Origin: a virus
Virus record (IMG/VR): IMGVR_UViG_3300037201_000054
Coordinates: 1-40,961 of that record
Length of the DNA: 40,961 bases
Strand: one strand, 5' to 3'
How positions within the stretch are numbered: the first letter of the stretch is position 1; the number at the start of each line of letters is the position of its first letter. Both the position numbers and the translations under genes were made by a program. The notes under the pieces were generated by a model, which worked only from the letters and a program-made list of their open reading frames with translations, was not told the origin of the DNA and did no database searches. Shown here one piece after another: positions 7,766 to 39,253 of the stretch.

Positions 7766-8272
7766 ATGAAACTCTCGCTACTCGTCGCCTCTCTGTTGCT
7801 CGCCGTCTCTCCGGTTTTCGCGGACAGCGTCAACACCATCACCATCTGGGACGTGAACCCACCCTACAGCTACAACTCGGTCCCGTTAACCCCCTCTACG
7901 CTGGTCCAAGAATCTGCTCCTGGTCCACAGCCAGGGGAGCAAGGTGCTATCGAGCTGGAGTGGAGTGCCCCTGCCAGCTGGACTCGCGGGGAGGTGTATA
8001 CCTTCTCTCTTTCCTTCGACGGTCAGACCTTCTCCGGCAGCGGCCAGGAGTATATGAACTACGGCGGAGCGATCTTTCTCCTTCCCCTGACCACCCAAGA
8101 CTATCCCGCCACGATCACCGTCTCCTACGCCGGTGGCGGGGCCGCTACACAAGCGTTCATCCTGGAACCGGTGCCGGAACCGGGAACATGGGCACTCATG
8201 GCGACCGGTTTGCTTGGACTCGCGGCTCAAGCACGCTGGGCGAAACAGAAGGAGGAAAAGGCGAACTCATGA
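7766..8272 (+). CDS. PEP-CTERM secreted protein, 168 aa
   Basis: The ATG at 7766 is preceded by AAAGGGGAA. The protein has a signal peptide (1-19, VFA-DS), a beta-sandwich-like body with paired aromatic strands, VPEPGTW at 136-142, a hydrophobic helix (143-154) and a basic tail. This is the PEP-CTERM arrangement recognised by exosortase. The tail continues as AAQARWAKQK, identical to the KGG/ARW protein at 6962. With the preceding gene it forms a two-gene secreted cassette. The phage would depend on the host sorting enzyme, since none is visible here. Confidence 0.8.
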   Translation: MKLSLLVASLLLAVSPVFADSVNTITIWDVNPPYSYNSVPLTPSTLVQESAPGPQPGEQGAIELEWSAPASWTRGEVYTFSLSFDGQTFSGSGQEYMNYGGAIFLLPLTTQDYPATITVSYAGGGAATQAFILEPVPEPGTWALMATGLLGLAAQARWAKQKEEKANS

Positions 8273-8475
8273 ACGCGGCCCCCAAAAAGTCGCCTAACAA
8301 AGCTGCTGCTCCGCCGCGTTACGGATTGAGCCATTGCCTCGAATGTGATCGCAAGATCCCCAACAGCGGTAATTACACCTTTTTCTGCTCCAAGGATTGC
8401 GCCGCCGATTGGGGCGACGATGAGGCTCAGGTGCAATTCCTCAGGGCTCGCGCCGAGCAGAAGAAGGAGAACTGA
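8269..8475 (+). CDS. zinc-finger protein, 68 aa
   Basis: The start overlaps the PEP-CTERM stop as ATGA. After a basic, Ala/Pro-rich N-terminus, CLECDRK (23-29) and CSKDC (40-44) form a compact zinc knuckle with a FF pair, resembling small phage and toxin-linked zinc fingers. The C-terminus is a charged helix. DNA or RNA binding is possible; no further function can be assigned. Confidence 0.65.
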   Translation: MNAAPKKSPNKAAAPPRYGLSHCLECDRKIPNSGNYTFFCSKDCAADWGDDEAQVQFLRARAEQKKEN

Positions 8476-11715: not shown

Positions 11716-12378
11716 ATGACAGAAATAAGTTCAGATTTGAAGGGAAAGGCGCAAGTTTTTGTTCGCGAGTATCTGCGTGATTGCAACGCCACAAGAGCTG
11801 CTATTGCAGCAGGTTACGCGGCTTCCTCGGCCTCCCAGGCGGGTTCCCGCCTGTACAGGAATGTTAAGGTCCGCTCAGAAATCGAACGGCTCACCTCGAA
11901 GCGCCTGATTGACCTGGAAATCGACGCTAAACGAGTGCTCCGCGGCCTGGCCCAGCTGGCCTTCTACGATCCGCGGCAGATGTTCAACGACAACGGATCC
12001 CTCAAAGCCATCACCGAGATGGATGAGGTAAGCGCGATGGCACTCAAGGGGATCGACGTGCAGTCGACCGAGACGATCATTCCCAATGGCGGAATCGGCG
12101 GGGCTGAAGCTGAGACGAAAGGCGCCGCAAGTGAGACGAAGGGCACCGACGAGGAAACGCCGGCGCCGCAGGTACTGAAACGCCGCATCACCGTCTCGAA
12201 GATCCGCCTGGCCGATCGCGGCGAAAACCTGGAACGGCTGGGGCGCCACTTGAAGCTTTTCACCGATCGCGTCGAATTCGAGGACACAACTCCGTATGAC
12301 CCAGAGCGGGACGATGCCCGCATTACGCAACTACTCGGCCAAGCAATTCTCGCAGCTGGTCGCGAGGCTCGACCCTAA
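11716..12378 (+). CDS. terminase small subunit, 220 aa
   Basis: The N-terminal region FVREYLRDCNATRAAIAAGY (about 15-34) followed by SASQAGSRLYRN is the DNA-binding helix-turn-helix of Terminase_2-type small subunits, which recognise phage DNA and recruit the large subunit. The central part is helical; a low-complexity Glu/Thr/Ala insert lies at about 130-155. The C-terminus overlaps the large-subunit ATPase gene by 83 bp. The ATG at 11716 lacks a good ribosome binding site, and the 175-bp gap upstream holds only weak promoter-like words and short dyads. Confidence 0.85.
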   Translation: MTEISSDLKGKAQVFVREYLRDCNATRAAIAAGYAASSASQAGSRLYRNVKVRSEIERLTSKRLIDLEIDAKRVLRGLAQLAFYDPRQMFNDNGSLKAITEMDEVSAMALKGIDVQSTETIIPNGGIGGAEAETKGAASETKGTDEETPAPQVLKRRITVSKIRLADRGENLERLGRHLKLFTDRVEFEDTTPYDPERDDARITQLLGQAILAAGREARP

Positions 12379-13060
12379 CAGCCAGCGCGAGCTGACCCAG
12401 CTTCTCGAACGGCGCGAACAATACGAACTGTGGAGCCAAGTCGCCAAACCCGTTGCATGCTGGGAAGCCGGACCCTTACTGTGGCTGACCTCGCACACTT
12501 TCACCGAGGACCATCACTCGCTGGCCAAGGGCACGGAGTTTCTCGCCCCCTTCCCGCGCGACGAGTACATCCGGGTGCTGGTCGACTACATTCTCTTCGA
12601 GCAATGCCTCGATGCCAACGCCTCGAACGTGCTCTTCGTACTGAAGACTCGAGAAATGATGTTCTCCTGGACCGCGGTCGGACTGATCACCTGGATGTGC
12701 CAGTTCTTGAATGTATTCTGGGTAGCGCAGTCGGGCAAGGAATCCAAAGGCGCGGAGCTGGTGAACTACGCCCGCATCCTCTGGCGCAACCAGCCGGCCT
12801 GGATGAAGCGGCGCAACCCGCTGGTAGTCGACAACGATTTAGAGTTGCAGTGGAAATCGGGCGGACGTTTCAAAGCGATCGCCTCGGGCGAAGATCAGAT
12901 CCGCATGTTCCATCCCCACGGCTACATGCAGGACGAGAGTTCCTTTCTGCCGGAAGCCGAGCAGGCTTTCAACGCGGCGCGGCCAGTGGTGGCACAGATC
13001 ATTTGCGGCTCGACCGACGAAGTGGGCTGGTTCTCGAGGCAGTGCAAGGGGCTGGTATGA
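12296..13060 (+). CDS. terminase large subunit, ATPase half, 254 aa
   Basis: This is the DNA-packaging motor domain. The modified Walker A reads LKTREMMFSW (116-125), a variant of the KxRxxxxS type found in some large terminases. Walker B is YMQDES (Asp213, Glu214), and the coupling motif is ICGST (237-240). The protein then ends at CKGLV, right where the linker to the nuclease domain would begin. The nuclease half is encoded separately at 17630-18697. Neither remaining frame after 13060 resembles terminase. The start could be 12296 or the in-frame ATG at 12314; both overlap the small-subunit gene. Confidence 0.85.
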   Translation: MTQSGTMPALRNYSAKQFSQLVARLDPNSQRELTQLLERREQYELWSQVAKPVACWEAGPLLWLTSHTFTEDHHSLAKGTEFLAPFPRDEYIRVLVDYILFEQCLDANASNVLFVLKTREMMFSWTAVGLITWMCQFLNVFWVAQSGKESKGAELVNYARILWRNQPAWMKRRNPLVVDNDLELQWKSGGRFKAIASGEDQIRMFHPHGYMQDESSFLPEAEQAFNAARPVVAQIICGSTDEVGWFSRQCKGLV

Positions 13061-13169
13061 GTAGACTTACTTCATACTCAGCGGATCGGCGCGGCTTCAC
13101 CGCAGACCGGACCGGGCACGGATCCCGGAAACTGGGCGGACACAAACCCGTAAGCGCCACAATTCTTCC

Positions 13170-13691
13170 ATGATCGACCGGCGCCAATATACTCCCGACG
13201 GCTCCAACCCTCCCTTCCCCGTGCCCATCAATGATCTGTGCACTGTGCCCACGGAAGAGATGGCCATGCTGCTCGCGAACCTGGTGCTGGGCGAAAACCC
13301 GGAAGCAGCGAAGCTGAAAGATATTTTAGAAATCGGCACGGGCTCCGGCTATCAGGCGGCGATTCTCGCGGAGCGCTGCAGGAGTTTGGTCTCGATCGAC
13401 GTTTGTCTCAATCGAGCACTGGAAGAGAAACTGCCGTCCCATGTCGCCCTGGTCGTGGCCAACGGCTACGAGTACGACACCGAAGAACAGTTCGATGGTG
13501 TGCTGGTCACCTTCGGCGCGCACGCGATCGCCGCGAGCTGGGGCTGGCAATTGAAGGAAGGCGCACGGCTGGTGGTTCCTTTGTTGCGCGGAAGCGGTTC
13601 TGCAATCTCAGTGTACGCACGCATCGGGGATCAACTGGCCCTGCTCGAAGTGGTGGCCTATGCTCCGTTCACTAAGGGAGTGGAAGCGTGA
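13170..13691 (+). CDS. PCMT-like SAM-dependent methyltransferase, 173 aa
   Basis: LEIGTGSGYQAAILA (53-67) is the SAM-binding loop of the protein-L-isoaspartate methyltransferase family, and VSIDV (74-78) supplies the acidic ribose-binding residue. The N-terminal YTPDGSNPPFPVPINDL and TVPTEEMA match the region that precedes it in PCMT. It is shorter than cellular PCMT (about 200-220 aa). It could repair isoaspartate or have been recruited to another small substrate. It is the first gene of the cassette that separates the two terminase halves and is coupled to the next gene by a GTGA overlap. Confidence 0.75.
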   Translation: MIDRRQYTPDGSNPPFPVPINDLCTVPTEEMAMLLANLVLGENPEAAKLKDILEIGTGSGYQAAILAERCRSLVSIDVCLNRALEEKLPSHVALVVANGYEYDTEEQFDGVLVTFGAHAIAASWGWQLKEGARLVVPLLRGSGSAISVYARIGDQLALLEVVAYAPFTKGVEA

Positions 13692-14596
13692 AACTGGCCG
13701 TCTTCTTCCCTGCTTCCCTGTTCTCGGCCTGGTGCTGCAGCTACGGCCTGGTGAATACGCTGAAGCGGATGGGGCACGAAGTGGTTAGCTGCCCGGTTGA
13801 CACGTCGAAGGCCGCGAACAAATTCGACATTAGCGGCGACGCTGTCGACGCGATCATTATTTCCGGCCCCGAACATATCAAGCCGGAATTTCCCTCTGGA
13901 ATCGACGAGCTCGTCCCGCGCGTGGCCTGGATGCACGAAACCGTCGAGCGCGAGGACTACGGCAAGCTGGACGTCGACGCCATCAAGGGCTCGGCCGACA
14001 TCGTCTTCTGCCCCGGCATCCAGGACGAGAAGTACGGGTTTCGCTATCTGCCGTTCGGAGTAGATACCGAAATATTCAAACCTCGCCAATGTGGGGCGCC
14101 CCCGAAGACGATCGACGCTGCCTTCATCGGGCTGCTCTACCCCAAGCGCCAAGCCTTCCTGAAAGAACTACGAGCGCAAGGCGTGGACCTCGTGACCGGC
14201 AATGTGCAAGTGTTGGAGATTGACGGCGTGAACCCGCGCAAAACGGCGGAACTCTACGCCGAGAACATCCGCAAGATCAAAGTCTTTGTGAACCTGCCGA
14301 CACTGAGCCAACTTGCGGTAACGAAGATTTATGAAGTGCTGGCGTGTGGGACACCGGTACTGACGCCGAAGATCGAGCACATGAAGAACCTGGAAGGATT
14401 ACCGGTTGAGACGTACTCGACGGCTGCGGAATGTGCGGCGATAGTGATTACACACAAGAAAGGCTTCCAGCCAAACCCATCCGAATTCACGATGAGCGCG
14501 ATACGATCCGATTTCATTCACAACCACCATCGTCTCGAACTGCGCTGCCAGACTATGATCGAAGCACTGAAGGAAATCGGCGCAAAAGCCGCCTAA
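13688..14596 (+). CDS. GT-B glycosyltransferase, 302 aa
   Basis: The layout is that of CgeB/group-1-type glycosyltransferases: an N-terminal Rossmann half (MKLAVFFPASLFS...), a linker at LPFGVDTEIFKP (121-132), and the donor-binding KIYEVLACGTPVLTP (213-227), where Glu216 should contact the nucleotide sugar. The GTG start overlaps the methyltransferase stop. Likely it moves a sugar onto a host glycan, virion protein or modified base; the sequence does not tell which. The epimerase downstream could supply its donor sugar. Confidence 0.8.
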   Translation: MKLAVFFPASLFSAWCCSYGLVNTLKRMGHEVVSCPVDTSKAANKFDISGDAVDAIIISGPEHIKPEFPSGIDELVPRVAWMHETVEREDYGKLDVDAIKGSADIVFCPGIQDEKYGFRYLPFGVDTEIFKPRQCGAPPKTIDAAFIGLLYPKRQAFLKELRAQGVDLVTGNVQVLEIDGVNPRKTAELYAENIRKIKVFVNLPTLSQLAVTKIYEVLACGTPVLTPKIEHMKNLEGLPVETYSTAAECAAIVITHKKGFQPNPSEFTMSAIRSDFIHNHHRLELRCQTMIEALKEIGAKAA

Positions 14597-14608
14597 AGGA
14601 CAAACTCT

Positions 14609-15049
14609 ATGAGAAAACTTTGCATTATCGTCGCACTCGGCCTCTCTTCCATCACCTTCGCCCAGGTTGCCCCGGCTCCAGTGAAGTCTGCGCCATCCAA
14701 GCCGGCCTCAGTCGAATCCGTGAACGCCATCCTCAAAGCTGAACACGAGCTGGACCTGGTGAAGAACGATATGGCCGACATCACGCAGCAGTTCCAAGCT
14801 TTGCAGAAGACGGCGGACATACTGAATCCGCGCTACAAGGAAGATGTGGCGAAAAAGCCAGAGGCCGAAGCCAAGGTCGACGCCGCACTCGATGCGGTCT
14901 ACGCAGCCAACGGTGTCTCGAAAGACAAGTACAACTTCGATCGGGCGAATTTCACCTTAACCGAAAAGCCGTCTGCGCCAATTAAGGCAGCGGCTCTCCC
15001 TTCAGTCCCACCGGTAACTCCGGCGGCAGAGAAAACTCCGATTCGATGA
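14609..15049 (+). CDS. secreted small helical protein, 146 aa
   Basis: AAAGGA lies upstream of the ATG. Residues 1-18 are a Sec signal peptide (cleavage near TFA-QV), then a Pro/Ala linker, a helical middle (about 36-75, HELDLVKNDMADITQQFQAL) and a Pro/Ala/Ser-rich tail. It would be periplasmic or exported. No family is recognised. Lying between a glycosyltransferase and an epimerase, it may belong to an envelope-modifying set. Confidence 0.65.
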   Translation: MRKLCIIVALGLSSITFAQVAPAPVKSAPSKPASVESVNAILKAEHELDLVKNDMADITQQFQALQKTADILNPRYKEDVAKKPEAEAKVDAALDAVYAANGVSKDKYNFDRANFTLTEKPSAPIKAAALPSVPPVTPAAEKTPIR

Positions 15050-15921
15050 GAGCGTTGGTCACAGGTTCAGCGGGTTTTGTGGGCAGGCATCTCGTCCCAA
15101 AGCTTAGAGCGTCCGGCTACGATGACATCGTATGCGTCGATCCCCGCGGCCCTTTGTCGTCGGGACCGGCTGCCACGTTCGATTGGTTTACAGAGAACTG
15201 CTCCTATCTTTTTGAGCACGTACCCTTCGACCTGGTCGTCCACCTGGCCGCCAACATCATCAACGTCGACGCCCGCATGAAGGGCGGTATGGAGATGTTC
15301 GACGACATCGCGCTCGATCTGGAATTCTGTAAGTGGCTGGAAAAGAATCCGCCCACCAAGTGCGCGGTCCTGATGAGCAGCTGCGCTACCGACAGCTGGA
15401 AGACGGACCCCTACGCCTTCACCAAGCTCGCTTTGGAACAGATGGCCCAGACGCTACACAAGAAAGGCGTGCCCGTTATCGTGTTGAAACCCTTCTCCGG
15501 CTACGGCGAAGATCAGACCGAAGAGTATCCCTTCCGCGCGATCCTGGAGCGAGCACTGCGCAAAGAAGATCCGCTCACGGTGTGGGGCAGCGGCGACCAG
15601 CTGCGAGACTGGATCCACGTTAACGATTTGACCGACGCGATCCTGTTTGCCATCGACAAAGTTCCGCCCAGCGCGAACCCGATCGAAGTCGGAACCGCTG
15701 TGGGCGCCACACTCCGAACCGTCGCGCGGATGATTGCCGCAGAGGTTGGATATTTCCCTCTCATAGGCTGCGACAGCAGTAAGCCGGCTTCCTCTGGTCG
15801 TCGGGTTGCGAATTCCGCTTTTTCGGGCAAGGATGTGCTGCAGAACTTCGGCTGGCACCCCAAGATCGACCTGGAAGAAGGCATCCGCCGCGCCGTCGCT
15901 GCAAAGATGGCCATCGCATGA
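15046..15921 (+). CDS. NAD-dependent epimerase/dehydratase (extended SDR), 291 aa
   Basis: TGSAGFVG (6-13) is the Rossmann dinucleotide loop, Asp32 suits NAD(H), and SS at 111-112 with YAFTK (Tyr123, Lys127) gives the catalytic set. LKPFSGYG (147-154) and the RDWIHVND region downstream are typical of nucleotide-sugar epimerases and dehydratases. Length is normal. Its start overlaps the secreted-protein stop as ATGA. It probably makes a nucleotide sugar for the neighbouring glycosyltransferase. Confidence 0.85.
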   Translation: MRALVTGSAGFVGRHLVPKLRASGYDDIVCVDPRGPLSSGPAATFDWFTENCSYLFEHVPFDLVVHLAANIINVDARMKGGMEMFDDIALDLEFCKWLEKNPPTKCAVLMSSCATDSWKTDPYAFTKLALEQMAQTLHKKGVPVIVLKPFSGYGEDQTEEYPFRAILERALRKEDPLTVWGSGDQLRDWIHVNDLTDAILFAIDKVPPSANPIEVGTAVGATLRTVARMIAAEVGYFPLIGCDSSKPASSGRRVANSAFSGKDVLQNFGWHPKIDLEEGIRRAVAAKMAIA

Positions 15922-16502
15922 AAGCCCTCCGCCAACGCTCCATCCAAGACGGCATCGCCGTGCACTCCGCCATCCAGCCGCGTGTCTACGAGTCTGACTC
16001 GGTTCACTCCTTCCGCATCGAACAAGCAAGGAACATGGTCAAGGACGCCATCGGCGGACGTAAAGGTCTGCGCATCGTCGAACTCGGCTGCGGAACCCTC
16101 GACATCAGTGGTCCGTTCTCGTCCGACCAGAATGTCTACGGAGTCGAATGCAATATCAATGCTGCCGCAATCGCCTCCGAGCGCTGGCCCTTCGCGAAAA
16201 TCAACTGGTGCTCGCTACAGCCGGAATCCTGCGACGTTATCGTGCTCTGTGAATTCCTGGAGCACATCGAAACCCCCTCAGAGCTAATCTCCGGCTGGCT
16301 ACCACTGGCAAAAGCTTGCGTGATCTCACATCCGCTCGACGGTGATCTGACCGATGACTTAAGCCGCGGCGAACATCAATGGTCCTTCTCGATGGAAGAC
16401 TTCCTCGGCTGGTTTGAACTGGGCGGACACTCCCTCGTCGAGCACGAAGTGTTCAAGATGGGCGGATATCAGATCGTACTGGGACGTGGAGCGAGGAATT
16501 AG
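15918..16502 (+). CDS. class I SAM-dependent methyltransferase, 194 aa
   Basis: IVELGCGTLDI (53-63) is motif I, YGVECN (74-79) supplies the acidic residue of the second strand, and the CDVIVLCEFLEHIETP stretch matches motif IV of Methyltransf_11/23-type enzymes that act on small molecules or sugars. It is coupled to the epimerase by an ATGA overlap, which favours a sugar or glycan substrate over DNA. No DNA-methylase catalytic motif (DPPY, PC) is present. Confidence 0.75.
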   Translation: MKALRQRSIQDGIAVHSAIQPRVYESDSVHSFRIEQARNMVKDAIGGRKGLRIVELGCGTLDISGPFSSDQNVYGVECNINAAAIASERWPFAKINWCSLQPESCDVIVLCEFLEHIETPSELISGWLPLAKACVISHPLDGDLTDDLSRGEHQWSFSMEDFLGWFELGGHSLVEHEVFKMGGYQIVLGRGARN

Positions 16503-16757
16503 ATGGGTTGGTATCACGACACCAGGTCCGACCGGTCAGCGCCGAATGAGCCGAGAGTTTCCCGGTGCATGTTCGGTCACGAACTATCCGCCAACATAGA
16601 AGGCGATCACTTTGATCTGGCCGTAGGCGGTCCCATCAAGGTGGAATTGGAGGCCGAGTTCGTCCACATCGGCTGCGTCCGTATGAGGTTAAAGACCTGG
16701 CACAAGCTGGTCACCGCCGTGGACGCCCTGCTCGGCAGTAATCATCACTCAGAGTGA
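16503..16757 (+). CDS. hypothetical protein, 84 aa
   Basis: The ATG follows the methyltransferase stop directly (TAGATG), with GAGCGAGGA upstream serving as ribosome binding site. The sequence has a CMFGHE segment and a beta-strand-rich centre followed by a C-terminal helix. I recognise no family and cannot connect it to the cassette enzymes. Confidence 0.55.
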   Translation: MGWYHDTRSDRSAPNEPRVSRCMFGHELSANIEGDHFDLAVGGPIKVELEAEFVHIGCVRMRLKTWHKLVTAVDALLGSNHHSE

Positions 16758-16758
16758 A

Positions 16759-17406
16759 ATGTCCTTCCGTGATCCCCAGCAGCGCGAGCACCTGGCCGCC
16801 GGAAGACTGGCCGCAATGCAGAGTCCCAAGACCCCGAAGCACCTGAAGTCGCACCTCGCCCGATTGCACGCCGAATCTACCCAAGGAGCCAGTCCCATGC
16901 CACCATCCCGCAACCAACTTAGCCGCCGATTCAAAGCACCTCAACCGCCGCGCTCGGCCGACGCGAACAACGTTTCCACGAAGAACGGCGTGCCTCCCAA
17001 CCAGGTCTGGAGTCCGGGCACCGACCAGTTCGAAAACCCCGGCGACACCTCGTCCTTCACCGACCAGGGCACCGACACGACTCCCATGGGCACCAAGGTC
17101 AAGACTTCCACCAAGCAGCCGGCGCCGGCTGGAACGCGTCCGATGAACGTGACCGCCTCACGTCCCTTGCCGAAAGGCATCGCGAAGACGGCGACGGCTA
17201 AAGTTGCGCTACCCAAGGCTCCAGGGTTGAATCAGAACCTTTCCCGCGTGGCGCACCCTCGCCCGGTAGCCACCAGCTTGAATCAGAGCGTGAAGCCGGT
17301 GATGCCGAGCGCCAAAAACGTAGCCCAGACGATTTCCATGCAGAAGACTCGCAACATGCGTGGAGCCGGCGCGAACTCGGCCTTTTACGGCGACTTCGGG
17401 GTTTAG
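16759..17406 (+). CDS. low-complexity protein ending in an AFYG tail, 215 aa
   Basis: The first 46 residues (QREHLAAGRLAAMQSPKTP and a following helix) look like a small folded domain. From 47 on the protein is Pro/Ser/Thr/Ala-rich and mostly disordered, with basic character. It ends NSAFYGDFGV. A strong AAGGAG lies before the ATG at 16897 (residue 47), so a shorter 169-aa product may be made as well. The AFYG tail is shared with three other proteins in this window. A virion-associated or scaffold-interacting role is inference. Confidence 0.6.
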   Translation: MSFRDPQQREHLAAGRLAAMQSPKTPKHLKSHLARLHAESTQGASPMPPSRNQLSRRFKAPQPPRSADANNVSTKNGVPPNQVWSPGTDQFENPGDTSSFTDQGTDTTPMGTKVKTSTKQPAPAGTRPMNVTASRPLPKGIAKTATAKVALPKAPGLNQNLSRVAHPRPVATSLNQSVKPVMPSAKNVAQTISMQKTRNMRGAGANSAFYGDFGV

Positions 17407-17417
17407 TTATAGCTAAA
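17400..17417 (+). promoter_or_regulatory. stop/start hairpin GTTTAG-TTATAG-CTAAAC
   Basis: A perfect 6-bp inverted repeat spans the stop of the 215-aa gene and ends just before the ATG of the next gene, in the place where a ribosome binding site would sit. No Shine-Dalgarno is visible for that gene. The hairpin may couple its translation to passage of ribosomes from upstream. Confidence 0.35.
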
Positions 17418-17418
17418 C

Positions 17419-17613
17419 ATGCCTTCCGTCTCCAAAGATCAGCAGATCGCAATGGCCATTGCGAAGAACGCGCCCGAGAAGCTCTACGCGCGCAACAAGG
17501 GCTTACTGAAAATGAGCGGACAGCAGCTCGATGAGTTTGCCCGCACCCCGCGCAAGAACCTGCCGAAGACCGCAGCCTCCGGACGAAAGAACAAAGCTTT
17601 CTATGGCCAGTAA
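17419..17613 (+). CDS. DUF3008-like small basic protein with AFYGQ tail, 64 aa
   Basis: It begins MPSVSKDQQIAMAIAKN and has MSGQQLDEFARTPRKNLP in the middle, the pattern I associate with DUF3008-type phage and bacterial proteins (SKaQQraaGmAl... then a FA.T.rKgLP box). Function of that family is unknown. The C-terminus is KNKAFYGQ, shared in kind with three other proteins here. It precedes the terminase nuclease gene by 16 nt. Confidence 0.6.
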   Translation: MPSVSKDQQIAMAIAKNAPEKLYARNKGLLKMSGQQLDEFARTPRKNLPKTAASGRKNKAFYGQ

Positions 17614-17629
17614 GTCTGGCGACTAACTC

Positions 17630-18697
17630 TTGACCGTTCCCAACACAACCTATCCCCACCCCGGCATCCAGGTGCACAAGAACCAGCACGGCATCACCTG
17701 CCTGCGGTTGCACTACGACGCCGACCCGGAGAAAGCCAAAGGCAAAAAGACCTTTGTGCCGGCGATCGAAATGGAATTGTCACCGTGGGCGTTGCAGCAG
17801 TTCGAGCAGATGACCGACCCCGCGCTCTACCTGCGGGAATTCGAGATCCAGGCCGAAGCCACACTCGGTTCCCTGATCTACCAAATGGACGACGAAGCGA
17901 CACTCGAACCCAGCTTTCCGATTCCCTTGAACTGGACCCGCCGCATGGCGCTCGATCCCCATCCCTCCGTCCCGCATGCGTTTCTGTGGTGCGCGACCGA
18001 TCCTTGGGGCGACCGCTGGTACTACCGCGAACTCTGGCCCTCGAAGGCCTGCTTCCGCTACGACGGGCCGCGGCTATTGGGCGCATCCGGCCCCTGCCCT
18101 CCGGACGATCCCTCCATTCGAATTAAGGACTACGTCGAAACCGTGAAGTGGATGGAATCCTCGGAAAACCCGGAGAACGTTGTCGTCAAGCCCGACCGCA
18201 CCGATCGATTCGATGAGACCATCTTCGCCCGCGTGATCGACTACGCGGCCCGCGCCTTCGGCAAAGGCACCAACGACGACCCGGAGCAGCCCAACTTCCA
18301 AGTGAGATTTGAGCAATACATGTGCATGCCGGAGCTGCGCGTGACCTGTCCGCTCTTCCAGGACGCCAAGAAAGATCACGACGTGGGCTTTGAGATGGTC
18401 AACGCTGGACTGAAGCCGCGGCGCACCATCGGCTCCGACGACAAGCCCCGCAAGCGCTCGCAGATTCACATCTTCCGCGACAAGTGTCCGGAGCTGATCT
18501 ACGAGATCAAGAATATGCGCCGCGAACGGCTGACGCCCGCCCAGGCCGTCCAGAAAGATCCGAGCGGCAAAGCCGTCCAGGTGCGCGCGCATATGTGCGA
18601 CAACCTGCGCTATCTCGAGATGTCGAACCCGATCTATATTGCGCCGCCCAAGAAAGAACCGCGCCGGCAGCAGCTCGCGAAAGGCTTCAGCTACTAA
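17630..18697 (+). CDS. terminase large subunit, nuclease half, 355 aa
   Basis: The C-terminal RNase H-fold nuclease of the packaging terminase, which cuts concatemers into genome units. The acidic set is plausible: Asp109 (MALDPHPS), Asp189 (VVVKPDR) and Asp324 (HMCDNLRY). The N-terminal part (GITCLRLHYDADPEKAK and LREFEIQAEATLG) corresponds to the segment that follows the ATPase domain in one-piece terminases, so it completes the protein begun at 12296-13060. The only candidate starts are TTG at 17630, just after a stop, or a GTG about 14 codons later; neither has a good ribosome binding site. Confidence 0.8.
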   Translation: MTVPNTTYPHPGIQVHKNQHGITCLRLHYDADPEKAKGKKTFVPAIEMELSPWALQQFEQMTDPALYLREFEIQAEATLGSLIYQMDDEATLEPSFPIPLNWTRRMALDPHPSVPHAFLWCATDPWGDRWYYRELWPSKACFRYDGPRLLGASGPCPPDDPSIRIKDYVETVKWMESSENPENVVVKPDRTDRFDETIFARVIDYAARAFGKGTNDDPEQPNFQVRFEQYMCMPELRVTCPLFQDAKKDHDVGFEMVNAGLKPRRTIGSDDKPRKRSQIHIFRDKCPELIYEIKNMRRERLTPAQAVQKDPSGKAVQVRAHMCDNLRYLEMSNPIYIAPPKKEPRRQQLAKGFSY

Positions 18698-18700
18698 TTC

Positions 18701-20971
18701 ATGGCCACACCTACCCAATCCTCCGGCACCGTCTCCGACATCATCCAGCGTCGCGACGAGAGCAAGAAATGGCTCCGCTACAACTACTGGGACGAGTGGG
18801 TCGAGACCTGGCGCATGATCAAGTGCCGGACTAAACCTCTGCGCAAACTCGACAGCGCCGGCAAGGAAACCAACGAGGAAGACAAGTCCCGCACCAACGT
18901 CGAGTCCGGCCTGGCCAACCTGATCTACCGCAAGAACGTTGCCCGCTTGAGCGCCCAGCCCTACACCTTGCGCGTGCGCGGCGGCTCCGATCCCTCTCGC
19001 GCGGCCCGGCTCTCGGCGCTGCTCTCGCATCAGTACGATACCAGCCAAGAACGCAGCGAAGATGTGCGCGTGCGGATGGCCGCGGAATCGCTCGGCATCG
19101 GCGTCTCCAAGCTTTACTGGGATTTCATCTCGCGCAACATGGTCTTCCGCAAGGCGATCATGAAGGAAGGCAAGATCGTGGCTCGCGACCGCGGCGAAAT
19201 GATGCGCTTCCGCAACGCCCCCGACGCGGAGATCCAGCAGTCGGTCGAAGAGCACGGCGCCTCGATGTCGGACGACGAAGTCAACGAGTTCATGGCCAAG
19301 TCCGGCGCCGAGATCACGGTCCCACAAGTAGTCGAGAAATACGAAGGGCCGCGCATCAAGTGCTGCTTCCCCGGCGATGTCTACTGGGAGCCCTTCGCCC
19401 GCACCCTGCGGCAATCCAGTTTTGTCACCGAGTGCTACAGCGAAACCGACCTGTGGTTAAAAAAGATGTTAGGGGTGAAATATAAAGATCCCGAGACTGG
19501 TGAGATGACGCCGGCGTTTGATCCCGAAGCCGTCGCCGGCCTGATGCGCCTCGATCCCGAGCCGGTCGTAGTCAAAGGCGAGTTCCAGGAACTGAAAGAT
19601 TTGTTCCGCACCGCAGTCGGCAAGCAAGATCAGGTCCAGTACCAGTTTCCGCGCAACCTGCGGGTGCGCAAGAGATACGACATCCTCGAGGAGCACAAGC
19701 AGGACGACGACGGCCGCATGTGGATTACCTGGTGCAACGAGAATTACCGCGACAAGGTTCTCGGCAAAATGCCCTACCCGGTGAACTTCTACGGCGACAC
19801 TGCTTTCACCGACGAAGTTCCCTTGCCCGATCTGATCGACGCCATCGGCGATTCGACGCCCCGCTTGCTGCGCTTCATGTTCATGCTGTTCAACCTGCAG
19901 CACTGCCAGAATTTCGACTACGTCACCAACTTGATTCGCGTGACCTACCTGGCGCCCGCAGGCCTCGACTTCGATACCGACGTGCTCGAGCGCGGCATGT
20001 TCCGCATCGTGCGCGTCTCCGGAGGCAATCCCAATTCCCTGCAGCCGGTTCCCACTCCGCCCCTGCCTCCGGGCGCGATGGAGCGCGGCGCCGCCATTAT
20101 GCAATTGATCGGCATGTTTGAGCCCTCGCTGCAGACCACCACCGACGGGACGACGTACAGCCCGCAATCTTCAAAGACCGCCACCACCGCCGTGCTGAAT
20201 GCGAAAGCCGCCGACGTGCTGCTCGCCTTCAAGATGGAGTCGCGCAACTTCTACCTGTATCAGTTAGGCATGAAGAAAATCTGGATGAACCAGCAGATGG
20301 CCGACATGGACAAAAGCTGGGAAGTGCCGTCGAAATACTTCGGCGGACAGATGCGCGATTACTTCGCGGGCAAAGGCATCGATCCCAAGAAATACGACGT
20401 GAAGTCATATCTCGAGCAGCAGCAGAACCAGGCCGCTGAGATCCCTTGGATTATGACCGACCAGGGCGGAATAATCTCCTCGGTGAAACTCGACCCCATG
20501 GAAATCCAGGAAGACTTCGAATGCGAGCCCGAGGCTGGCTCTTACATGGCAGTCGATGATGATCTGCGCCGGCAGGCCGCGGTCGAACTCGACCAGGTCG
20601 CGATGCAAGCTCCGGACGTGCTCGATCGCCGCAAGGTGATTGTGAATCACCTGAAGACCATCAAAGGCATCGACCAGCCGGAAGACTTCCTGGCGCCGGA
20701 AAGAACCACGCCTCCGCCGCCGCCGGTGAAAGTGAACGTGAGCCTGACCGGAAAAATTGAGGATGTGCCTGGCGCAATGAACGCGCTGCTGCAGGAACTA
20801 GGTTTGCCACCGTCGCAAGATCTGGCGGAACAGGGACAACTGAACACCATCAAGCGGCTCAGCCAAGCTTCCGACCACGCCAGTAACCTGCTCTCGAATC
20901 CGGACGCCACCGACGAAGAAGGGTCGTCCCACGGAACCCCGGTAGAGCAAGCGGAGACCGTGACCGCGTAA
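18701..20971 (+). CDS. portal protein, 756 aa
   Basis: The large size, position directly after the terminase, and an N-terminal helical part with RTNVESGLANLIYRKNVARL fit a phage portal, the dodecameric ring through which DNA enters the head. The middle has an alpha/beta wing (about 180-340) and a long helical stem with LNAKAADVLLAFKMESRNFYLYQLG (about 505-530). The C-terminus is acidic, Pro-rich and probably disordered. I cannot place it in a named portal subfamily with certainty; the P22-like size class is likely. Confidence 0.75.
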   Translation: MATPTQSSGTVSDIIQRRDESKKWLRYNYWDEWVETWRMIKCRTKPLRKLDSAGKETNEEDKSRTNVESGLANLIYRKNVARLSAQPYTLRVRGGSDPSRAARLSALLSHQYDTSQERSEDVRVRMAAESLGIGVSKLYWDFISRNMVFRKAIMKEGKIVARDRGEMMRFRNAPDAEIQQSVEEHGASMSDDEVNEFMAKSGAEITVPQVVEKYEGPRIKCCFPGDVYWEPFARTLRQSSFVTECYSETDLWLKKMLGVKYKDPETGEMTPAFDPEAVAGLMRLDPEPVVVKGEFQELKDLFRTAVGKQDQVQYQFPRNLRVRKRYDILEEHKQDDDGRMWITWCNENYRDKVLGKMPYPVNFYGDTAFTDEVPLPDLIDAIGDSTPRLLRFMFMLFNLQHCQNFDYVTNLIRVTYLAPAGLDFDTDVLERGMFRIVRVSGGNPNSLQPVPTPPLPPGAMERGAAIMQLIGMFEPSLQTTTDGTTYSPQSSKTATTAVLNAKAADVLLAFKMESRNFYLYQLGMKKIWMNQQMADMDKSWEVPSKYFGGQMRDYFAGKGIDPKKYDVKSYLEQQQNQAAEIPWIMTDQGGIISSVKLDPMEIQEDFECEPEAGSYMAVDDDLRRQAAVELDQVAMQAPDVLDRRKVIVNHLKTIKGIDQPEDFLAPERTTPPPPPVKVNVSLTGKIEDVPGAMNALLQELGLPPSQDLAEQGQLNTIKRLSQASDHASNLLSNPDATDEEGSSHGTPVEQAETVTA

Positions 20972-23062: not shown

Positions 23063-24307
23063 ATGGCTGAACAAAACATTCGCAGCTTTCAGGACTACCA
23101 GACCGAAGGTACTCTGGTGCGAGACGTGGCGATCGACATGCTGCTGCTCGAACCCGACCGCACTCCGCTCTACGTCCTCACCAACAACTCCAAACGGAAG
23201 AAAACCGTTTATAACCCGATCTTTGAATGGCCTGAAGATCAGGATCTACCCATGCTCGGCACCGTGTCGAACGGAACCACGGCGCTTAGCTCGGTAGCCA
23301 CCGCAATTCCCGTGCAGGACGTCACCATCTTCGGCGTCAACGATATGGTCCAGGTCCCAAGCTCGGGCGACATCGGCACCGGCATCGAAGAAGTGGTGCT
23401 GATCACCGCGGTCACCATCGGCGCGGGCACGCCTTCAACCACTGCCTACCAGATTGGCGCCGTCGCCGGCACCATCACCGTGACCCGCGGCTTCGCGGCT
23501 ACCACGTCGGGCACGGTTGGGGCCACCCAGTCGCTGCGCATTATCGGCACGGCCGCCACCGAAGGCGGAGCCATCCAGACTCCGCGTTCGCCCTATGTCA
23601 CGCTGAAAACCTCCGCCTGCCAGATCTTTGAGCAGCCGGTGCAGATCACGCGCATGGGCGCTTCGACCCGGACCTACTACGACCGCAATGAACGAGCCCG
23701 ATTGCAAATGCTCGCCATGCGCCGCGCCAAGCTCGAGATCGAGGACGTCGGCATCTTCGGCGTGTACTCGCAGACGGTCAACGGAACCTCCACGCGCCTG
23801 AGCTCCATGGGCGTGCGCTCGGTAATCTCGCCCTTCGTCACCGACATGGGCGGGACCGTGACCTATCAGTCGTTCCTGCAGGCGAACGAGTTTACCTTCC
23901 GCTACGGCTCGCCCCAGAAACTGCTGATCGCCTCCCCGCTGGTGAAGACCGCGCTCGACTACTACGCGGCCAACAAGCAGCTGGTCAAGCCTGACATCGA
24001 CCTATTCGGCGTAAGCCTGAAGAAGTTTGTGACCTCGAACGGTACGTTCCTGATCGCGAACAACTTCAACATGGGCGACTTCAACGCTTCGACCAACTAC
24101 AGCTACGAGGCGCTGGCGATCGATCTGCCGTCCATCGAGTTCTGCCCGTTGTCGGACAACGGCATCTCGAACGACACGCAGCTGATCACCAACTACGACA
24201 CGACCAATCCGAAGCTGATCAAGGATCTGGTCTACACCCAAGCGGGATGGAGAATTCGCCACCCTGCCCGTCACGCGCGATTCACTAACTGGACCGCGTT
24301 TCAATAA
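23063..24307 (+). CDS. major capsid protein, 414 aa (HK97-fold, possibly DUF5309/SU10-like)
   Basis: The protein is long, soluble and rich in Thr, Gly and Val, with an N-terminal helix and arm (RSFQDYQTEGTLVRDVAIDM), a Val/Thr/Gly-rich insertion (about 85-165), and NERARLQMLAMRRAKLEIEDVGIFG (about 209-233), the long helix region of HK97-type coats. DUF5309-like capsid proteins have this size and order; the subfamily is my inference. It follows the scaffold gene and is followed directly by a strong terminator, as expected for the most highly expressed virion gene. Confidence 0.75.
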   Translation: MAEQNIRSFQDYQTEGTLVRDVAIDMLLLEPDRTPLYVLTNNSKRKKTVYNPIFEWPEDQDLPMLGTVSNGTTALSSVATAIPVQDVTIFGVNDMVQVPSSGDIGTGIEEVVLITAVTIGAGTPSTTAYQIGAVAGTITVTRGFAATTSGTVGATQSLRIIGTAATEGGAIQTPRSPYVTLKTSACQIFEQPVQITRMGASTRTYYDRNERARLQMLAMRRAKLEIEDVGIFGVYSQTVNGTSTRLSSMGVRSVISPFVTDMGGTVTYQSFLQANEFTFRYGSPQKLLIASPLVKTALDYYAANKQLVKPDIDLFGVSLKKFVTSNGTFLIANNFNMGDFNASTNYSYEALAIDLPSIEFCPLSDNGISNDTQLITNYDTTNPKLIKDLVYTQAGWRIRHPARHARFTNWTAFQ

Positions 24308-25283: not shown

Positions 25284-25692
25284 CAAGAAAAACGAACTGC
25301 CGCGCTACCAGTGTCACAAGGAAGTGCGGGCGGTGAAGATCGCCGCGATCGATATGGAAAAATTGCCGACCTGGACGGGCTCGACCTGCAGGGGCTCGAT
25401 CATGCTCGGCTCCGCCTGCGGCTTTTGTGAGCGCTGTAAATGGGAGCGCGAGCACGGGCCGAAGCTGGGCGCAGTCATCACGCCCGCCAATCAAGCGTAT
25501 GCACCGTTTGAAGTCTCCGGCGATTACATGCACAAGCACAAGCCGGTGGTGGGCGGCTACTTCGTGATCTACGAAGACGGCTACCAATCGTTCTCGCCGG
25601 CGAAGGCATTCGAGGACGGCTATTCCTTGATGGACCTTCGCGGAGTCGACACCAAGATGGTCGAGGGAGTTAAGGGTTCCAATCTCCAATGA
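25273..25692 (+). CDS. phage protein with YQCHKEV...KHKPVVGGYFV motifs, 139 aa
   Basis: It has RYQCHKEVRAVKI near residue 11 and KHKPVVGGYFVIYEDGYQSF about residues 89-108, a combination I recognise from many small uncharacterised phage proteins. CGFCERC (50-56) is a Cys pair in an added segment. The C-terminus (FEDGYSLMDLRG) is conserved-looking. Function unknown. ATGA couples it to the glycosyltransferase. Confidence 0.65.
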   Translation: MPVNKKNELPRYQCHKEVRAVKIAAIDMEKLPTWTGSTCRGSIMLGSACGFCERCKWEREHGPKLGAVITPANQAYAPFEVSGDYMHKHKPVVGGYFVIYEDGYQSFSPAKAFEDGYSLMDLRGVDTKMVEGVKGSNLQ

Positions 25693-26774
25693 CGCTGCGT
25701 CCTGAAAATCTCGATGTGAACGATTCGGTTCGCCTGCTCGACAAACTGAAGAGCGAGAGCCCCTCGGGGCTGAACCGCCTCGACGTGCTGGACGCGGAGA
25801 AACGCCTTTCCCGCATTTTGAAAAGTTCCGAAGGCCGCGAAGCCTTCCGCCGCGTGACCGGATTGCGCGAAGCCGTGTTCGCTGGAGACGCGCCGCCACA
25901 GGAAGAGACGCAAGAGAAACTCCCCACCGTCGCCATTCTCATGCCGAGTTATCGCCTTCCCGCCCCGCAAGCCTGGGAAGGGCTGAACCGCATGCTCCGC
26001 GCAAGTCAAAACGTCTGCCGCGCCTATATGGAGCCCACCATTCGCCAATCGGTCGTGCACTGGTCGCGCAACTATTGCATCTCGCTGCTTTTGAAAAGCA
26101 TGAAGCCGTGGGATCACGTCCTGTTCATCGACGACGACATTGTCATGCCGGAAGACGGCCTGGCCAAGATGCTGGCTCACAAGAAAGACGTAGTGGCCGC
26201 AGCCTGCACCGTGCGCGTGGATCCGCCCATGCCGAACTTCCGCGTCTACGATCCCGAGCAGAGAGTTTTCTGCACGTGTCTCGAATGGTCGAAGGAAGGA
26301 CTCATCGGGGGAAAGTATTTCGGCGCGGGCACGGGAGCGATGCTGATTTCCAAGAGCTGCCTGCAGCGCGTGGCCGAGTATTACATCAACTGCCGCTATG
26401 AGCAGAAATTCTACGGCCTGGCCGGCGCCGCGCTCGACAAGCTGCAAAGCGGCCGGCAGAAGCAGGCCAAAGTCAGTTCCGACTTCTGGTGGTTTGAATT
26501 CCTGAAGCAGCCCGATGGCCTGGGCGAATTCGGCGAAGACATTTCCTTCTGCTTCAAGTGCATGGAACTCGACATTCCGATCTATGTTGACACCACCGTG
26601 CGCCCGCGCCACATGGGCGACTATGGCTACAACCTCGACGATTACCTCGACTGCCGCGCCAGCTACAAAGAACAGATCGCCGAGCGCGCCGCGATGGCTC
26701 CCGTTGTTAACTCCGAAATGATTCAGGCTCCGATGCAAGCAGAGCAGATTCAGGCGGAACCATGCCCGGCATAG
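25689..26774 (+). CDS. GT-A (GT2-like) glycosyltransferase, 361 aa
   Basis: VAILMPSYR (81-89) opens a nucleotide-binding Rossmann-like region. FIDDDIVMPEDGL (146-158) holds the DxD motif (148-150) that binds metal and nucleotide sugar, and the FGEDISFCFKCMELDI segment further on fits the catalytic ED helix of GT2 enzymes. An extra 75-residue helical N-terminus precedes the fold. Encoded among head genes by an ATGA overlap, it may glycosylate a virion protein. The acceptor is unknown. Confidence 0.75.
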   Translation: MTLRPENLDVNDSVRLLDKLKSESPSGLNRLDVLDAEKRLSRILKSSEGREAFRRVTGLREAVFAGDAPPQEETQEKLPTVAILMPSYRLPAPQAWEGLNRMLRASQNVCRAYMEPTIRQSVVHWSRNYCISLLLKSMKPWDHVLFIDDDIVMPEDGLAKMLAHKKDVVAAACTVRVDPPMPNFRVYDPEQRVFCTCLEWSKEGLIGGKYFGAGTGAMLISKSCLQRVAEYYINCRYEQKFYGLAGAALDKLQSGRQKQAKVSSDFWWFEFLKQPDGLGEFGEDISFCFKCMELDIPIYVDTTVRPRHMGDYGYNLDDYLDCRASYKEQIAERAAMAPVVNSEMIQAPMQAEQIQAEPCPA

Positions 26775-32773: not shown

Positions 32774-33052
32774 ATGGGCGGAGCATTGGGCGGAGTCTTC
32801 AGCAATCAAGGGCAAGGGGCAGACGGCTCTCCGTCGCTTCTGCAGAGTCTCGTGCAGGGCTCAGCGCAAGGCGCAGGCACGGCCTTCGGTAAGGGCGCGC
32901 AGCAACCGCCGCCGCGATCTGGCGGACCTGGCGGCGCAATGCAGGCTCCCGCGGCCACTCCGGTGGATCCACGATTCTTTCAGCCATCAACTTTTACTCC
33001 ACCGGGCGCACCAGCTCCGGGCGGCGGCAATCCAGCGTTTTACGGACAGTAG
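32774..33052 (+). CDS. Gly/Pro/Gln-rich protein ending AFYGQ, 92 aa
   Basis: Low-complexity, probably disordered, with a GALGGVFSNQGQG opening and a Pro-rich middle. It ends GGNPAFYGQ. The composition is like the proteins at 16759 and 38951, which share the tail. Its position two bases after the membrane-protein stop and just before the large internal protein suggests a virion assembly role, by inference only. Confidence 0.55.
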   Translation: MGGALGGVFSNQGQGADGSPSLLQSLVQGSAQGAGTAFGKGAQQPPPRSGGPGGAMQAPAATPVDPRFFQPSTFTPPGAPAPGGGNPAFYGQ

Positions 33053-34963: not shown

Positions 34964-36885
34964 GTCCGCAGACACAAACCGTCGATTACGACGCGCTGGC
35001 GAAACAGGCTGGCGCGATCTCATCGATGCCGGACTACGATACGCTGGCGAAGCAGGCGGGAGCAATCTCGTCGACTGCGCCCGCTTCGGCCGCTCCGCAG
35101 CCTCCCGGATACTTTAAGCGGCTCGGTCAATCGCTGGGCCTGCCGACATCGATGGATGAACTGAAAGCCGCGCAACCGAGTACTGCTGAAATCATCGGCG
35201 GTCCTGCGGTAACTGCCGGGAAGATGCTCTGGAACTACGGGAAAACCGCGGTAAAGGGCGTCAAGGAAGGTGCGCAGGAAGCCTACGACGCAGGCCAAAA
35301 CATCGCGGCCGGTCAGCCTGTCCTTCCGAATGTCGCTAAGGCCGGATACGGATTGGCGCACGCTAATCTGCAGGCCACTCCTGTCATCGGCCCACCGGTC
35401 GAGACTGCGGGACAAGATGTCAGCGCGAAGAACTACCGCGGAGCTCTCGGTGGACTCACCGGAGTCATCGCCCAACTCGCACTCGCCAGCGATCCCGGAC
35501 AAGCAGCCATCGAAAAAGGCGCATCGCTGGTCAAGGCCGCACCGTCGAAAGTTGTGCAGGCCGCGAAAGCTACCGGGCAAGTTCTCAAAGACGCAGCGAC
35601 GCCGGAAAATATCGCCACAGCGGTCGGTTCTGGGGTTGGTGGCTATGCGGGACATTTAGTTGGAGAGCCGGTTGGCCTAGGGTTGGCTGGTGGCGCTCTC
35701 GGACGTGTGTTAGGAAAGTCGATCGCGAAAAGATTAGCAACGCCTCCAGAGACCCCAGTTCTCCCTGGAGCTACGCTGCCCGAAACACCCGCACCCGAAC
35801 TTCTGCAGGGGAACGCTCTCTCGACCGGCGCACAACCGGCAGTCGATCCCAGCGCCGGCCTGAATCAGATTCCGATCCGCGGCTTCCGTCAGCCAGTATT
35901 TCCCGGCGCTAAATTGCCGGAAACTCCAGCGCCCGAGGTTTTACAGGCGCAAGCTCTCGCCAGTGGCGCGCAACCAGCAGTCGATCCCAGCGAGGGACTG
36001 GGACAGATTCCAATCCGCGGCTTCCGCCCAGTTCGTCCGGCTCCAGAAGCACCACAACCCGTCGCCCCTCCGACAACCCAAGGCGCACTCGTCAATCTGC
36101 AGCAACAGATAAACGACGCTCTCGGTGGCAAGCCCCTGCAGGAAGGCGTCCCGCTCAAGAATCAGCGCCCGCAGACGAATCTTCAGCAACAGCTCGCGGA
36201 CGCAGTAGGACCGTCGACCCAGAAGCCCAAGGCTCCGCTCACCAACTTGCAGGACCAAATTGCCCATCCCTTGCCGGAAGGTTTCACGCCGGTCGATTCC
36301 AGAGCACTCCTGGGCTACAAATACGATCCCGCAACGCTGGAACACACCACCATAAGAAACGACGGCGTGCCCCGCACTTTCGCTCCCGTGACGCCAGACG
36401 CGGCGCAAGCCTTCGCCGACGCTCCCTCGAAAGGAACTGCCTTAGGGCCGTTTGAGCGCGCTCATGTGATGACGAAAAAGAACGGTATCCCGGTAAAACC
36501 GACGACGCGGGGCACGGCGACCCCGGCTGGCGAAATACTGCCTCTGAAGAAGTCTGCCGCGCCACAAGATCCTGCTGCGAGCGCATCTCCGGCTGAAGCT
36601 CCGACTCCCGACACGGTCGATCTAACCCAGATGCTGAAGAAATCTGTTGCTCAGGCGGAGAAGGCGCGACAGATGAAGATGAAAGCGGCTGCGACTCCAA
36701 CCGAAGGCGAGGGGGCTCAGTCGGCCTCTGCGCCGAAGGAGGCACTTCGGCGGCCCGGAATCTTCGACGACCTACGGGCAGCGCAATCGACTGGTCAGCC
36801 CACAGGAAGCGCAGCAGGCGCGGCAGAATCTGAGCGACAAACTCTTCCGCACAAACGCGGGCCTCGATCCAACAATGCTCGCTGA
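34960..36885 (+). CDS. repeat-rich N-terminal part of a polyvalent-type virion protein, 641 aa
   Basis: Residues 8-38 hold two copies of a DYDxLAKQAGAISS repeat. Residues 160-260 are Ala/Gly-rich with hydrophobic helices. Residues 266-356 hold two near-identical 45-aa repeats (LPETPAPE..., AQPAVDP...IPIRGFR). Residues 378-440 have three NLQQQ-type repeats. Residues 445-505 (DSRALLGYKYDPATLE... SKGTALGPF) may be a degenerate KTSC-like domain. The frame ends at 36885, but the sequence that matches the downstream protein family continues in the next frame (+1) from about 36770, so this and the gene at 36875 were or are one protein. Confidence 0.65.
   Translation: MSPQTQTVDYDALAKQAGAISSMPDYDTLAKQAGAISSTAPASAAPQPPGYFKRLGQSLGLPTSMDELKAAQPSTAEIIGGPAVTAGKMLWNYGKTAVKGVKEGAQEAYDAGQNIAAGQPVLPNVAKAGYGLAHANLQATPVIGPPVETAGQDVSAKNYRGALGGLTGVIAQLALASDPGQAAIEKGASLVKAAPSKVVQAAKATGQVLKDAATPENIATAVGSGVGGYAGHLVGEPVGLGLAGGALGRVLGKSIAKRLATPPETPVLPGATLPETPAPELLQGNALSTGAQPAVDPSAGLNQIPIRGFRQPVFPGAKLPETPAPEVLQAQALASGAQPAVDPSEGLGQIPIRGFRPVRPAPEAPQPVAPPTTQGALVNLQQQINDALGGKPLQEGVPLKNQRPQTNLQQQLADAVGPSTQKPKAPLTNLQDQIAHPLPEGFTPVDSRALLGYKYDPATLEHTTIRNDGVPRTFAPVTPDAAQAFADAPSKGTALGPFERAHVMTKKNGIPVKPTTRGTATPAGEILPLKKSAAPQDPAASASPAEAPTPDTVDLTQMLKKSVAQAEKARQMKMKAAATPTEGEGAQSASAPKEALRRPGIFDDLRAAQSTGQPTGSAAGAAESERQTLPHKRGPRSNNAR
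34981..35073 (+). repeat. tandem DYDxLAKQAGAISS repeat
   Basis: Two in-frame copies (34981-35025 and 35029-35073) of a 15-residue unit encoded near the start of the 641-aa gene. Codons differ between copies, so selection has acted on the protein since the duplication. Confidence 0.7.
35755..36027 (+). repeat. tandem 45-residue repeat, two copies
   Basis: Copies at 35755-35889 and 35893-36027 encode the same block (P.LPG..LPETPAPE to IPIRGFR) with about seven amino-acid differences and many silent ones. The period is 46 residues. It is likely a flexible or binding repeat in the virion protein. Confidence 0.75.
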
Positions 36886-38950: not shown

Positions 38951-39253
38951 ATGGGCTCGGGCTTAGCTCCAAAGAATTTTCCCTGGCCGTCCACCATCGG
39001 CAGCTCGCCGGCCGCGGCTCCCCTGACTCAATCAATGGCTCCGGGCCAGGTAGGCGCGACTTCGCCTTACGGTGGCACGAACCAGCCCGGAAGTTCCGGA
39101 ACTCCTGCAGCACCAACCTTGCCGGCAACTCCGACGCCGCCGACACAACCGCCGCAGAACCCCCTTCTCCCGAAGAATCCCCTGGCCCCGATCACGCGTC
39201 CCGTCGCCGGCGGCTCTCAATTGGGACTGGCGAATGCGTTTTACGGTGCCTAA
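38951..39253 (+). CDS. Pro/Gly-rich protein ending AFYGA, 100 aa
   Basis: Low complexity, with runs of Pro, Thr, Gly and Ser, probably disordered. It ends LGLANAFYGA, sharing the tail of the proteins at 16759, 17419 and 32774. It lies between the polyvalent-type protein and the fibre gene. A connector or assembly role is possible; nothing in the sequence proves one. Confidence 0.55.
   Translation: MGSGLAPKNFPWPSTIGSSPAAAPLTQSMAPGQVGATSPYGGTNQPGSSGTPAAPTLPATPTPPTQPPQNPLLPKNPLAPITRPVAGGSQLGLANAFYGA

Follow-up and report, generated by a model that had tools for sequence, protein, structure and literature searches.

The terminase large subunit (TerL) is regarded as one chain of two domains, ATPase and nuclease, and models of force generation centre on the hinge that joins them. 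When TerL of phage T4 (gp17) was cut artificially at the linker, the ATPase and nuclease activities were kept and translocation was abolished (PMC3012670, PMC9958956). Group I introns and inteins interrupt phage TerL genes, and the known interrupted genes are spliced (PMC11878797, PMC3322345, PMC7156551). In herpesviruses, UL15 has two exons, with UL16 and UL17 lying inside its intron (PMC3079670). A naturally split, unspliced two-chain TerL has no description in the open-access literature that we searched (subscription journals being outside this scope). Here we describe a phage lineage in which TerL is encoded by two ORFs and very likely consists of two polypeptides, most likely assembling non-covalently into one packaging motor.

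The two TerL reading frames and their neighbourhood

The window, i.e. the whole stretch of DNA analysed, is a linear IMG/VR virus record of 40,961 bp whose termini have no end repeats, and all the records of the split-TerL clade are metagenomic. The neighbourhood TerS - TerL - portal - capsid is kept in the window (Table 1), TerS and the capsid protein being identified by Pfam while the portal is weak in Pfam and conserved in position. This portal-like gene begins 3 bp beyond chain 2, a position also conserved in three related loci (L005, L006 and L010). What is absent from the window is the usual, although not strictly defining, TerL feature of both domains on one polypeptide: the halves are two ORFs 4.6 kb apart with eight ORFs in between. 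An earlier note on this DNA had placed an ATPase ORF and a nuclease ORF on either side of eight genes for methylation, glycosylation, epimerisation and small proteins. The ORF list confirms the coordinates of both halves, and methyltransferases, a glycosyltransferase-like protein and an epimerase are indeed found among the eight intervening ORFs.

Table 1. Features of the TerL region in the window
Feature	Coordinates	Strand	Evidence
TerS (terminase small subunit)	11716..12378	+	PF03592 E=1e-28, phrog_51 E=5e-29
TerL chain 1, ATPase core (NsubI equivalent)	12296..13060	+	ORF, 254 aa; fold match; invariant residues
PCMT-like protein methyltransferase	13170..13691	+	PF01135 E=3e-13
Glycosyltransferase-like protein	13688..14596	+	PF13524 E=3e-5
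Small protein, signal-peptide-like start, coiled-coil	14609..15049	+	ORF, translation
NAD-dependent nucleotide-sugar epimerase	15046..15921	+	PF01370 E=2e-32; phrog_540
Methyltransferase-like protein (second in cassette)	15918..16502	+	phrog_6564 E=4e-6
84 aa protein	16503..16757	+	ORF; homologue in L004
Basic low-complexity protein, 215 aa, C-terminal AFYG tag	16759..17406	+	
Small basic protein, 64 aa, C-terminal AFYG tag	17419..17613	+	
TerL chain 2, lid/transmission segment + RNase H-like nuclease	17630..18697	+	ORF, 355 aa; fold matches; conservation
Portal protein, SU10-like (weak)	18701..20971	+	PF23899 E=0.003, under curated cut-off
Major capsid protein, SU10-like	23063..24307	+	PF17236 E=1e-24

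Identity of the two chains and position of the break

Sequence profiles barely recognise the halves. The best match of the ATPase half was the TerL family phrog_2 with a marginal E = 0.05, and the nuclease half was matched by no Pfam or PHROG profile. Pfam, PHROG and PDB sequence searches with both halves gave nothing significant, and tblastn against GenBank phages with the window's halves and those of a related locus (L014) as queries gave no match. The identity of the halves is settled by AlphaFold models, built on alignments of the homologues found in this analysis, which match terminase folds.

The chain 1 model (pLDDT 84) matches T4 gp17 residues 101-305 (Z 21.2, rmsd 2.6, 195 residues). 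K117, R119, D213, E214 and S239 are invariant in the 26 N halves aligned, K117 being the lysine that opens a Walker A of deviant form, K[ST]R[ED]M[ML]xSW. The one-piece TerLs of phages RM378 and Henu15 share this deviant motif in an EK.R form (EKPRQMGVTW and EKSRDYGATW, respectively). By its model and these residues, chain 1 is a terminase-type P-loop ATPase with a catalytic acid pair and a coupling motif. As the earlier note had it, the ATPase domain ends just past this motif: chain 1 stops 15 aa after Ser239 in the window, and 0-25 aa beyond the motif in nearly all contigs, so the cut site is conserved.

The chain 2 ORF, which has a TTG start with an in-frame TAA just upstream, is laid out as a lid/transmission segment (~1-79) and an RNase H-like nuclease (~80-338). 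For its model (pLDDT 74), fold matches were obtained with the nuclease domains of the D6E (Z 18.2), P22 (Z 15.7) and SPP1 (Z 13.3) terminases, and also with those of RB49, G20c and T4 gp17 (361-562, Z 12.8). D109 and D324 are invariant in all 31 C halves aligned. The second conserved nuclease acid is D204, in RVIDYAARAFG, right after a predicted strand. Thus, among the key residues listed in the earlier note, Lys117, Asp213/Glu214, Asp109 and Asp324 hold across the 26 N and 31 C halves, whereas Asp189, which sits in a non-conserved, indel-rich variable insert of chain 2, has to be replaced by D204. The fold matches and conserved acids identify the nuclease part of chain 2 as RNase H-like, with D109, D204 and D324 as its acidic triad.

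Where does the break fall? In gp17 numbering, ~305 is the last residue of chain 1 and ~361 the first of the nuclease part of chain 2. The first ~79 residues of chain 2, which have a lower model confidence and were placed by mapping of the flanking folds rather than by a direct match, would stand at the position of NsubII (“transmission”) and the linker. On this mapping, the break falls at the hinge of the power stroke, with NsubI on one side and NsubII on the other, and the lid/transmission segment goes with the nuclease. The split between ATPase and nuclease pieces described earlier stands as far as the two ORFs are concerned, and the nuclease ORF does start with the segment that normally follows, i.e. 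transmission/lid. However, the cut is not at the ATPase/nuclease domain border: it separates the ATPase core from the lid/transmission segment. With the window chains joined end to end, ~124 residues separate Ser239 from the first nuclease Asp, compared to a spacing of ~115 residues from coupling motif to D401 in T4 gp17; thus nothing appears to be missing from TerL. D401 is the nuclease Asp of T4 gp17 (PMC3012670). The laboratory cut of gp17 lies after NsubII, in the linker, whereas the natural cut lies between NsubI and NsubII. Since the linker cut abolishes translocation, a two-chain motor must have compensated.

Distribution, cassettes and one-piece genes

Profile searches of IMG/VR retrieved the relatives of the window first and, in a later round, ~80 loci that are more distant; all open frames were searched for both halves. 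In total, ~114 distinct environmental contigs carry both halves as separate ORFs (88 after 95% dereplication). The gap between the halves, approximate as start codons were picked automatically, is within 100 bp in 42 contigs, 0.1-1 kb in 13 and beyond 1 kb in 59. Many of the 42 close pairs overlap stop and start by 1 or 4 bp, and the chain 2 start ranges from 4 bp upstream of the chain 1 stop to 5,576 bp downstream. Even at ~27% identity the catalytic residues do not vary, and the distances among N halves and among C halves correlate with r = 0.86, compared to at most 0.07 in 500 permutations; the halves co-evolve and share their ancestry. Matches in bacterial genomes came from nine contigs, all of them in Acidobacteriota MAGs, and this membership suggests that the hosts of split-TerL phages are probably acidobacterial.

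The gaps of the window's clade have a core of a PCMT-like methyltransferase, recurrent in 21 of 29 related gaps, and basic low-complexity proteins, to which movable extras are added. For example, the glycosyltransferase and the epimerase, which the window has inside the gap, follow the capsid gene in L005. In the window, a second glycosyltransferase-like protein (Anp1, weak; 25689-26774) is also encoded downstream of the capsid gene, and its sequence, together with those of the cassette enzymes, suggests surface or DNA glycosylation. The gap genes of other split-TerL clades have no detectable homology to those of the window's clade, which makes it probable that genes entered the gap on more than one occasion. 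Moreover, in a clade of 31 rows of the N tree the halves are almost always adjacent, so that the split is independent of the cassette. The idea that a cassette had moved the nuclease gene fits poorly with these adjacent or overlapping halves in a whole clade; the split probably came first.

A C-terminal FYG tag recurs on a number of different small proteins that are basic or Pro/Gly-rich (A-F-Y-G-[EQDGAK] followed by 0-4 residues). In the window, these are the last two cassette products and the proteins encoded at 32774-33052 and 38951-39253; elsewhere, they are found in the gaps of L004-L048, in G001 (37749-38054 and 42135-42377) and in G003 (8058-8342). Within TerL gaps of the window's clade, the tag is carried by 43 of 396 plus-strand ORFs and 0 of 404 minus-strand ORFs, against 4 of 1644 outside gaps, and none was found in other split-TerL clades. 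From its sequence, it may serve these proteins as a common tag for recruitment or targeting, and among the features described here it is perhaps the most novel. The window also encodes a 657 aa protein (36875-38848) with weak matches to PHROG families of endolysins and of DarB-like antirestriction proteins; it may be an internal or an ejection protein.

Three one-piece genes, from two lineages, were found within the clade: L114 (574 aa), L152 (735 aa) and L154 (781 aa; the same locus as L052). In the tree built on both halves together (35 rows, careful search; the separate N tree has 98 rows), L114 is sister to the split L109, whose gap is 1457 bp, and L152/L154 group with the split L077, both with support 100/99. 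A tree uniting all split genes was rejected (p-AU 2e-66), the one-piece genes being nested deep inside the split clade. The N tail and the C start of L109 (1008-2467), 1,457 bp apart, are a single continuous stretch in L114, and a fusion of this natural kind counts as Rosetta-stone evidence for the two chains working together. L152 and L154 share one contig of an acidobacterial MAG (G033 contig C45), with ~28 kb between them, and L154 carries an N-terminal transposase-OrfA-like helix-turn-helix extension.

By parsimony, the fused state costs two changes on the tree, or three when the tree is rooted on one-piece TerL, which makes independent splits in every lineage a less parsimonious history. 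Parsimony favours instead a single ancient split followed by two re-fusions, with unrelated cassettes filling the gap repeatedly, though the gene may also have been split repeatedly at one and the same point. Most likely, a single early split would have yielded two adjacent, translationally coupled genes; cassettes unrelated to each other would later have entered the gap several times, and at least two re-fusions of the gene would have occurred.

A probable two-chain packaging motor and its relation to known systems

Two objections raised in the earlier note, an assembly error and a second complete terminase, could be addressed directly. That the window, a linear IMG/VR fragment, holds an assembly error or a decayed gene in one contig only is refuted by ~114 distinct contigs from many metagenomes that show the same architecture with conserved catalytic residues, leaving a practically nil probability for an artefact. 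A second TerL was found in none of 33 records including the window by searching with phrog_2, whose four matches are N halves of the clade, and three larger clade records of up to 65 kb each have exactly one N and one C half. This also bears on a reading that gives the ATPase and nuclease halves independent roles outside a common motor, with something else driving packaging. The T4 domains are individually active once separated (PMC3012670), and in two MAG loci (L051 and L053) an N half is present and no C half was found in the contig stretches searched. Against this, no other TerL was found in these records, the order TerS-N-C-portal and the catalytic residues are kept, the halves co-evolve and re-fused genes exist, so that separate jobs are quite improbable.

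Alternatively, the halves could be rejoined into an ordinary TerL after transcription or translation, by a split intron, trans-splicing, a split intein or a frameshift. The introns and inteins of phage TerL genes and the two exons of UL15 are precedents for it. However, Rfam detected no intron in the window, each half has its own start and stop, and the cassettes, which differ between clades, are densely packed with genes on the strand of the two halves. As no intein-sized flanking extension was found in the homologues, the few residues beyond the conserved domains leave no room for split-intein parts, in agreement with the earlier note, which saw no intein or intron-like sequence. Among adjacent pairs all three relative frames are represented: 8 pairs keep the same frame, and the two other frames account for 26 and 8. 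This mixture speaks against one common mechanism of frameshift or readthrough, and a programmed frameshift was rejected. We therefore consider rejoining very improbable.

The ~114 contigs, the co-evolution of the halves, the lack of a second TerL in the records searched and the natural re-fusions support the proposal that both halves are functional-looking separate chains of one TerL, and from these sequence data we infer a two-chain function. The chains would be made separately and bind each other at the portal, and ATP-driven movement would pass across their interface. More broadly, it is likely that a large and ancient clade of tailed phages, probably acidobacterial, uses a genuine two-chain motor broken at the power-stroke hinge (NsubI on one side, NsubII plus nuclease on the other), in which the covalent engine-transmission linkage is dispensable and the gap is a recurrent cassette site. 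Given the outcome of the gp17 linker cut, such a natural motor would be a real, testable surprise. A lineage that separates the engine from transmission and nuclease offers a direct test of the need for covalent coupling, and the split L109 and its re-fused sister L114 are a natural pair for experiments, with ready-made controls. These phages are a large group among soil viruses of bacteria, often with other genes between the motor halves. As phrog_2 recognised only 4 of 33 clade records, TerL marker searches may miss them.

Short TerL entries are found in BFVD (e.g. 235 aa in Pectobacterium phage CBB and 238 aa in Campylobacter phage F207), and short PHROG TerL families exist too. These may be intron-split or fragmentary genes, or there may be other split TerLs elsewhere.

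Among described phages, the window resembles SU10-like phages by its major capsid protein, which matches SU10_MCP (PF17236 E=1e-24), with its portal as a weak, candidate match (PF23899 E=0.003, under the curated cut-off). The comparison with terminases proposed in the earlier note yielded one-piece relatives both within the clade (the three genes above) and in GenBank. The latter (Rhodothermus phage RM378, HRTV-5, Morganella phage Henu15, Meiothermus phage MMP17 and Podoviridae ctKR88) are ~23-28% identical over the ATPase or the nuclease region, and are single ORFs of 415-588 aa where TerL here is two. As in the interrupted TerL genes of Bastillevirinae, Campylobacter IBB_35 and Mic1, the coding sequence is interrupted; those genes are rejoined by splicing, whereas the search for a splicing element gave none here, and what separates the halves is ordinary phage genes. 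Likewise, herpesvirus UL15/UL89 has two TerL-homologue coding parts with unrelated genes between them, but these are spliced into one protein (PMC3079670), in contrast to two ORFs each with its own start and stop. Finally, the split TerL shares with T4 gp17 and classical TerL the order, folds and spacing of ATPase core, lid/transmission and RNase H-like nuclease, with TerS upstream and the portal downstream; gp17 is one polypeptide, whereas TerL here is two ORFs.
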